Shown here piece by piece: positions 2,644 to 52,963 of a stretch of DNA of 64,000 bases. The DNA lies in assembly GCF_000237325.1 (NCBI RefSeq), contig NC_017542.1, forward strand, positions 3,940,501-4,004,500, given 5' to 3'. Made by a program: the position numbers and the translations under genes. A model generated the notes under the pieces. The model had not been told where the DNA came from. It searched no databases and saw only the letters and a program-made list of their open reading frames with translations. Numbering within the stretch: position 1 is the first letter of the stretch; each line of letters begins with the position of its first letter. Source of the DNA: Paenibacillus polymyxa M1. GTDB lineage: Bacteria; Bacillota; Bacilli; Paenibacillales; Paenibacillaceae.

Positions 2644-2842
2644 TGAAAAAGGCTACTGTGTACGGTCTGGACACCGCTTTGCAAATGATTTGATCTTACG
2701 ATCGCTGTTACCCCTGAATTTATTTTATCCTATGAGAAAAGGAGTAAATTCAGGGGTAAAGGCGAACGCTGACGCTTCTTCAGATTCAAATCCTTCGCTC
2801 CGCTACAACGTGTACGCAGTTATAATAACTCTTTTAAAAGCA
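2644..2842. repeat. long imperfect palindrome, copy A of dispersed structured element 1
   Basis: In the 515-bp gap between era and yqzL. The central perfect 15-bp inverted repeat TTACCCCTGAATTTA (2708-2722) / TAAATTCAGGGGTAA (2745-2759) encloses a 22-nt loop. It is flanked by arms ATTTGATCTTACGATCGCTG and GCGAACGCTGACGCTTCTTC-AGATTCAAAT. An outer stem ACTGTGTAC (2655-2663) / GTACGCAGT (2812-2820) pairs with one G-U wobble. Related arms occur at 32762-32888 and 52597-52780. No coding signal was seen. The rest of the gap holds a hairpin (2890-2913) and a plus-strand promoter-like pair. Confidence 0.8.
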
Positions 2843-32761: not shown

Positions 32762-32888
32762 TAAAAGTGTGGTGTTCGATGGGACGCAGCTCTGCGGTTC
32801 ATTTGTTCGTACGATCGCTGGCGCTTCTCCAGATTCAAATGAACCGCTTCGCTACTGCCCGCCTGTATATCGATGTCACGCTTTTAGA
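32762..32888. repeat. palindrome, copy C of dispersed structured element 1 (short form)
   Basis: Perfect 12-bp inverted repeat GCGGTTCATTTG (32794-32805) / CAAATGAACCGC (32836-32847) around TTCGTACGATCGCTG and GCGCTTCTCCAGATT. These inner arms match copies A and B. The outer arms AAAAGTGTG (32763-32771) / CACGCTTTT (32877-32885) pair with one G-U. The central 15-bp stem present in A and B is missing. It lies in the gap between the divergent RlmI-like and Na/Pi genes. Confidence 0.75.
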
Positions 32889-52596: not shown

Positions 52597-52780
52597 AAAA
52601 TGAGCCGAGGTCGAGACCAACCGCTTCGTGTTCCATTTGATCTTCTGATCGCTGTTACTCCCCAATTTTCCATTATATAAGCACTCTTAGGGATAAAATT
52701 GGGGAGTAAAGGCGAGCGCTACGCTTCTCCAGATTCAAATGGCCCACTCCGCTGCTGCCCACCACGAATCGGTCATTTTT
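52597..52780. repeat. long imperfect palindrome, copy B of dispersed structured element 1
   Basis: In the 417-bp lepA-hemW gap. Central perfect 15-bp stem TTACTCCCCAATTTT (52655-52669) / AAAATTGGGGAGTAA (52695-52709), loop 25 nt. The inner arms CCATTTGATCTTCTGATCGC and GCTACGCTTCTCCAGATTCAAATGG match copies A and C. The outer arms AAAATGAGCCGA (52597-52608) / TCGGTCATTTT (52769-52779) pair with one bulge. The central stem differs from copy A at many positions, yet pairing is kept on both sides. The rest of the gap holds only the lepA terminator. Confidence 0.8.
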
Positions 52781-52909: not shown

Positions 52910-52963
52910 AATAAAGAACGTCCATTCTCCATGCATGGCAAATGCCTCATGAAAGAATGGACG
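52910..52963 (-). terminator. hairpin terminator after lepA
   Basis: Minus-strand CGTCCATTCT / AGAATGGACG, perfect 10 bp with a 25-nt loop that can pair further (GCAT), followed by TTCTTTATTTG, 16 nt after the lepA stop. Confidence 0.7.

Follow-up and report, generated by a model that had tools for sequence, protein, structure and literature searches.

Here, we show that the two hairpins of the window analysed in this work, a stretch of 64,000 nucleotides from Paenibacillus polymyxa M1, are members of a large dispersed intergenic repeat family of Paenibacillus and its relatives. Pairing in this family is selected or actively maintained, and the differences from copy to copy derive largely from the replacement of whole matched stems, with few true single-pair compensations. 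Since stems are replaced wholesale, most of the difference between the two elements, hereafter copies A and B, would come from their carrying distinct hairpins, each matched within itself.

The hairpins of the window

The central stems described in the first-pass annotation were both confirmed. In copy B, the 15-bp stem joins TTACTCCCCAATTTT (52655-52669) to AAAATTGGGGAGTAA (52695-52709) around a loop of 25 nt, and in copy A, TTACCCCTGAATTTA (2708-2722) pairs with its complement at 2745-2759 around a loop of 22 nt. The outer arms also pair within each copy, as had been claimed, although they diverge less than was implied: both copies have TTTGATCT/AGATTCAAA, and it is the bases outside these motifs that differ. 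Copy B forms one rod from end to end (Table 1). The fold of positions 52597-52780 has a z-score of -4.12 on the written strand and -5.15 on the opposite strand, with none of 200 shuffled sequences as good on either, and it beats all 200 shuffles as RNA of either strand and as DNA of the minus strand.

Copy B lies between lepA and hemW, and era and recO flank copy A. All four genes are named by NCBIfam matches above the cut-offs, and at both sites the adjoining genes are on the minus strand. The location of copy B in a lepA-hemW mRNA, which the earlier description took for granted, is less secure, since a terminator-like hairpin separates lepA from copy B, and the element may lie outside that transcript.

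Table 1. Repeat copies, their parts and a neighbouring hairpin in the window
Feature	Position	Strand	Basis
Copy B, whole rod-like hairpin, lepA/hemW	52597..52780	- (strand inferred to fold; first-pass annotation gave the complement)	fold and covariance model match
Copy B, P1 left arm AAAATGAGCCGA	52597..52608	.	fold
Copy B, conserved island 1, left CCGCTTCG	52621..52628	.	alignment
Copy B, P2 left arm TTCCATTTGATCT	52631..52643	.	covariation
Copy B, conserved island 2, left TCTGATCGCTGTT	52644..52656	.	alignment
Copy B, P3 left arm (central stem of the first-pass annotation)	52657..52669	.	covariation
Copy B, apical loop, 25 nt	52670..52694	.	
Copy B, P3 right arm	52695..52707	.	covariation
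Copy B, conserved island 2, right AAAGGCGAGCGCTACGCTTCTCC	52708..52730	.	alignment
Copy B, P2 right arm AGATTCAAATGG	52731..52742	.	covariation
Copy B, conserved island 1, right CCCACTCCGCTGC	52743..52755	.	alignment
Copy B, P1 right arm TCGGTCATTTTT	52769..52780	.	fold
Terminator-like hairpin after lepA, right of copy B	52919..52963	-	by eye; strict consensus scan gave no score
Copy A, core (P2 and P3 with both islands), era/recO	2673..2804	-	
Third copy, short form without P3, divergent intergenic region	32785..32859	.	

A repeat family with conserved islands and free stems

The repeat is concentrated in the bacterial family of its host, with a few copies in neighbouring families. In the M1 genome, a DNA search gave 26 matches. 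We built a covariance model, R1, from 20 aligned copies of this genome (20 of the 21 listed by an anchor pattern; L021, whose outer arm is decayed, was omitted), and it returned 49 raw matches in the same genome, which became 42 distinct elements after merging opposite-strand readings. R1 matched 28 of 39 genomes, comprising all 24 of the same genus (M1 included) and 4 of the 15 from other families of the order. At least 70 R1 matches were present in 14 of the 39 genomes, M1 among them, with per-genome counts listed up to 79. Among 250 sampled genomes of the class, screened with stricter filters, 23 matched, 22 of which belong to the same family as the host. Similarly, a pattern scan of named genomes gave at least 120 stretches, and the 120 listed are all titled Paenibacillus or near relatives (Saccharibacillus, Gorillibacterium, Fontibacillus and a Paenibacillaceae bin) except one named Bacillus. 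Three of the R1 matches in other families of the order (L082, L083 and L287) are weak and divergent; L082 has a near-perfect stem amid remnants of island 2 that resemble GCTGTT and GGCGGACG.

The element is roughly 180-260 nt long and consists of three stems of free sequence with two conserved islands between them, in the order P1, island 1, P2, island 2, P3 and loop from the outside inwards. The consensus of island 1 is CCGCTnCG ... CCGCTCCGCT and that of island 2 is TTCCGATCGCTGTT ... AAAGGCGAACGCTnnCGCTTCTCC. For the outermost stem, P1, pairing in 81 of 201 copies exceeds the 95th percentile set by mismatched partners, against about 10 expected, and in several recent copies of Paenibacillus baekrokdamisoli the similarity spans about 260 nt and ends abruptly. 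Within the island-2 stem there are three in-register non-Watson-Crick positions, kept in 200, 202 and 202 of 202 copies; on the written strand these constant mismatches are A.A, T.G and G.A. Their persistence argues that selection, and not homogenisation alone, acts on the islands.

Rfam gave no match in the window, and the five matches listed for three loci were all far below the gathering scores. A search of open-access literature, which misses most subscription papers, turned up no description of the repeat family, and none was found in the accessible text of PMC2267715, PMC2229807, PMC10969869 or the Paenibacillus riograndensis transcriptome (PMC5670726).

Some loci have additional features. 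Direct copies stand two or three in a row, with a period of roughly 170 to 270 nt, at L151, L120, L180, L130, L182, L349 and L290. An extra hairpin of the AGCTTTCC..GGAAAGCT type is found at the 3' base of P3 in L248 and, in G047 and G007, at the site corresponding to 32.8 kb of the window. In two genomes of the genus (L078 and L284), one P2-side arm is tandemly repeated beside the element.

Pairing is conserved above the phylogenetic background

Across the 20 M1 copies, 96.0% of the stem cells pair, compared with 79.3% after shuffling of partners and no more than 47.9% with the partner slid along the alignment, and 24 of the 36 stem pairs change on both sides. Because partner shuffles ignore kinship, we wrote a tree-aware test in the manner of R-scape, which combines a structure-blind alignment, a FastTree tree and a G statistic with average-product correction. 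Its null consists of 60 alignments that preserve the tree and, approximately, how often each column changes, and the model is one without the recombination between copies that the data show. With 202 copies, 11 of 9,591 column pairs reached E < 0.05, all 11 of them partners in P2 or P3. This set had been preselected for at least 8 of 12 complementary stem bases, a filter that could inflate covariation, so the test was redone on 211 copies chosen by anchors only. It gave 14 significant pairs, again all 14 in P2 or P3, and thus the covariation check named beforehand in the first-pass annotation, run here in R-scape style, came out in favour of covariation. The stem filter is failed by 16 of the 211 copies, several apparently through a shift of register. 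The selected structure proposed from copies A and B therefore stands as far as pairing conserved above the phylogenetic background is concerned, whereas the idea that the differences are mainly point compensations does not, as the orthologous sites indicate.

Stems are replaced as matched pairs

Orthologous elements in four close genomes were identified from the two flanks of each (usable loci: 34 of 42 in M1; 29 of 30 in G055 and 25 of 30 in G047, the 30 being taken from 41 matches in each; 26 of 29 in G014). This yielded 111 orthologous pairs; in 94 of them both members are full-length, and P2 could be scored in 93. Both arms of P2 were replaced in 13 of the 93 pairs (5 elements, 4 loci), neither arm in 79, and one arm in a single pair, in which the element L393 is truncated and has nothing right of island 2; the similarities of P2 arms at orthologous sites are bimodal. 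P3 was replaced while P2 was kept in 6 of the 93 pairs, at two places: one is a clean swap at a single element (L032/L382), and the other has the tandem copies L349 and L356 of G047. In one of the five P2-swapped elements (L034 versus L374) it is P2 that was replaced and P3 that was kept, so P2 and P3 can act as separate modules, in agreement with the several P2 and P3 types that occur in differing combinations within one genome. At swapped sites, the P3 loop is replaced along with the stem. The lepA-hemW site itself has two P2 types in G047 and G055, whose genomes are 96% identical, and in G049 the core between the island-1 repeats has been lost there.

The swapped elements L385 and L386 of G014 adjoin, as do L058 and L382, one of them P2-swapped and the other P3-swapped, and regional exchange between strains could therefore explain some of the swaps; flank identities at these adjoining elements are ordinary, about 87-96%. 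The best match of a swapped core within its own genome is only 0.76-0.88 identical among the copies compared, and hence no recent donor was identified.

For the count of point changes, pairs with at least 4 changed stem pairs were set aside. The 72 orthologous pairs left have 936 cells, among which 5 paired changes were counted, spread over 4 sites. Moreover, among copies at least 93% identical (42 copy pairs), one-sided changes of P3 are common and double changes number 0, which shows that true compensation proceeds in two steps. Since whole stems are swapped as matched pairs, what looks like compensation would largely be descent from different, already paired hairpins.

Perfect yet variable stems could also arise without any selection for structure if replication template switching copied one arm onto the other, a mutation process proposed to maintain hairpins in the accessible text of PMC8794818. 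This would also explain the concordant replacement of P2 with P3 kept in L034 versus L374. However, the in-register mismatches of island 2 have not been homogenised, and the swapping of the P3 loop with its stem points to block exchange. The two steps seen among the most similar copies also speak against it, although switching as the second step is compatible with them, and we regard template switching as a distinctly unlikely cause.

Stems can also be lost. P3 is missing on one side in 17 of the 111 orthologous pairs, and the junction in 8 short forms reads GATCGCT in 5, GAACGCT in 1 and a variant in 2, which suggests slippage deletion between direct repeats in island 2.

Which strand folds

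If folding is confined to one strand, the better candidate is the opposite of the written strand, that is, the hemW-sense strand at copy B. Mismatches of P3 on the written strand are mostly A.C, C.T and C.C, which correspond to G.U, G.A and G.G on the opposite strand, and these are mismatches that stems tolerate. The inferred gains of G.U, G.A and G.G in P3 on the opposite strand number 112 against 32 for the mirror classes (by class, 62 vs 26, 36 vs 5 and 14 vs 1). P2 has a smaller excess (74 vs 42, 55 vs 31 and 14 vs 15), and in a control in which arms were re-paired between copies the P3 ratios were just 1.2, 1.5 and 1.7. In addition, predicted RNA stability is higher for the opposite strand in 147 of 203 copies and for the written strand in 52.

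The clade of the window itself shows little of this signal (G.U 11 vs A.C 8, then 5 vs 2 and 2 vs 0). In the other copies, much of the G.U part comes from one stem position and one subfamily, and after their removal it shrinks to 27 vs 16 (p = 0.13), while the G.A skew stays at 27 vs 1. One-sided changes at orthologous sites are about even between the strands (27 vs 21), so mutation bias is not an obvious cause of the skew. The constant mismatches of island 2 are milder on the written strand and point the other way. Because the skew of G.A equals or exceeds that of G.U, single-stranded DNA is as good a fit as RNA, judged by general mismatch stabilities.

Spread of the element and search for a mobiliser

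Nine near-identical copies lie at separate places of one P. baekrokdamisoli chromosome, and such dispersed copies, together with the high copy numbers, indicate that the element has spread. As an alternative to RNA, the first-pass annotation had offered hairpin DNA recognised by a transposase; the distribution of Y1 (PF01797), the obvious family of single-strand transposases, does not follow that of the element. Mobilisation by Y1/RAYT was rejected, the family being absent from G003, G004, G008, G014, G015 and G022 despite 38 to at least 79 element matches, and the M1 genome has one Y1 gene, broken by a stop, on its second contig. In 120 loci of 8 kb, representatives of 8 of the 25 largest ORF clusters were checked; they are transporters and metabolic enzymes, and none is a transposase. 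With one copy as the query, plasmids gave one weak match and phages none.

We could speculate that the repeat is an ordinary MITE, derived by deletion from an insertion sequence and moved through terminal inverted repeats, with the pairing as a by-product. The repeat resembles a MITE in its size, copy number, intergenic placement and long inverted repeats, and several recent copies of one species, P. baekrokdamisoli, share common ends. Conserved terminal inverted repeats were not seen, however: the ends pair within copies and differ between subfamilies, and the conserved sequence is internal. A constant target duplication was not recognised among the P. baekrokdamisoli copies, nor was a clean empty site with such a duplication found, site C in G014 and site A in G055 both looking like losses; an exact pattern for empty sites with a single island 1 returned just the ends of existing elements (3 of 3). 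Moreover, the stems have stayed paired while diverging much further than recent inverted repeats would account for, and a MITE of the usual kind thus appears very unlikely.

Genomic setting

Using a mechanical ORF caller and a simple home-made hairpin finder for the gene-context and terminator counts, 178 of 203 copies could be placed, 173 of these 178 in intergenic regions, and 25 of the 203 are unclassified. The left end, as written, is nearer a gene in 136 of 173 copies. A terminator-like hairpin stands on the right in 48 of 199 copies and on the left in 9 of 199; these hairpins differ between loci and therefore look like host terminators. Between convergent genes, two elements may flank one terminator. 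L250, L251, L254 and L255 form inverted pairs with their right ends facing a few hundred bases apart, some of them around a shared terminator. A larger composite element was considered and rejected, the regions between inverted pairs containing seemingly ordinary terminators. In the M1 genome, with the contig start taken as the origin, there is no replication-strand bias (left half 13 plus and 9 minus, right half 12 and 8).

Between co-directional genes, the strand inferred to fold is sense in 84 copies and antisense in 32, and the bias remains without the lepA site (79 vs 32, p = 9e-6, with no correction for kinship among copies). Copy A and copy B each have this sense arrangement in a co-directional setting. 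It is tempting to read this bias as the mark of a host-selected RNA, in which the opposite-strand RNA, in 5' leaders or between genes, would act on the neighbouring mRNA through processing, stability, termination or protein binding, each copy being kept folded in place. In the same direction point the persistence of orthologous elements among genomes 85-96% identical and the five in-place point compensations. Several observations run against this idea. The M1 genome has 6 sense and 10 antisense copies between co-directional genes, the position of the elements also tracks gene boundaries and terminators, P3 is repeatedly lost on one side and some sites have lost the element. G.U pairs occupy just 98 of 2,622 P3 cells, which is few relative to typical RNAs, and Rfam families do not match. 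A host-selected RNA is thus possible, if rather unlikely.

Proposed stem exchange in a dispersed structured element

The best reading of these data, to which we would give about an even chance, is a dispersed structured element with exchange of stems. Its copies would spread as a non-autonomous element, a process that would need the islands and a folded form on one strand, probably the opposite of the written one. Ectopic gene conversion, re-insertion or strain exchange, bounded by the islands, would then swap stems wholesale, while slow two-step pairwise compensation would supply new stem sequences. A more specific version, which we consider a long shot, is that the stem is an exchangeable cassette, with a recombination activity on the folded single strand or cruciform that reads the islands and swaps both arms at once. 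If this were true, the genome would keep a library of shuffled hairpins at fixed sites beside terminators.

Integron attC sites are recognised as a folded strand and combine a variable stem with conserved unpaired positions, and their likeness to the Paenibacillus repeat serves here as a working analogy only. REP/BIME sequences are dispersed palindromes with RAYT (Y1) transposases, for which the folded single strand matters. The Paenibacillus repeat is several times longer than REPs, described as 20-40 bp in the accessible text of PMC3733652, and is without the Y1 association. The bcr1-bcr18 sequences of the Bacillus cereus group are likewise dispersed intergenic repeats of a Gram-positive group; the accessible text of PMC3446304 describes bcr1-bcr3 as MITE-like and gives conserved secondary structures for bcr10 and bcr18, with some half of the bcr copies located within transcripts. 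They belong to another lineage and are set apart from our repeat by description; the plan of islands and free stems, and the matched stem replacement at orthologous loci, go unmentioned for bcr in that text. BOX, SPRITE, ERIC/RU-1, Correia/NEMIS and similar small mobile repeats are also intergenic, 100-200 bp long and give strongly folding transcripts, but the accessible text of PMC2229807 and PMC10969869 characterises them by conserved sequence and partly also by terminal repeats that carry target duplications. In contrast, both arms of every stem of the Paenibacillus repeat are free in sequence.

Our work adds a high-copy structured repeat, without an Rfam family, to a major group of soil bacteria. 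Strong covariation among repeat copies need not mean point compensation, since the block replacement of matched stems mimics its signal. Stem swapping is therefore a caution for covariation screens on repeats, and the family offers a natural test bed for the evolution of paired stems.

A second, shorter hairpin family, with the constant tip ATACACACA..TCTGTGnTGTACC and variable matching arms, occurs at L089 and L099-L115, in the lepA-hemW intergenic region of other genomes of the genus; 9 of its 15 instances have at least 11 of 12 complementary bases.
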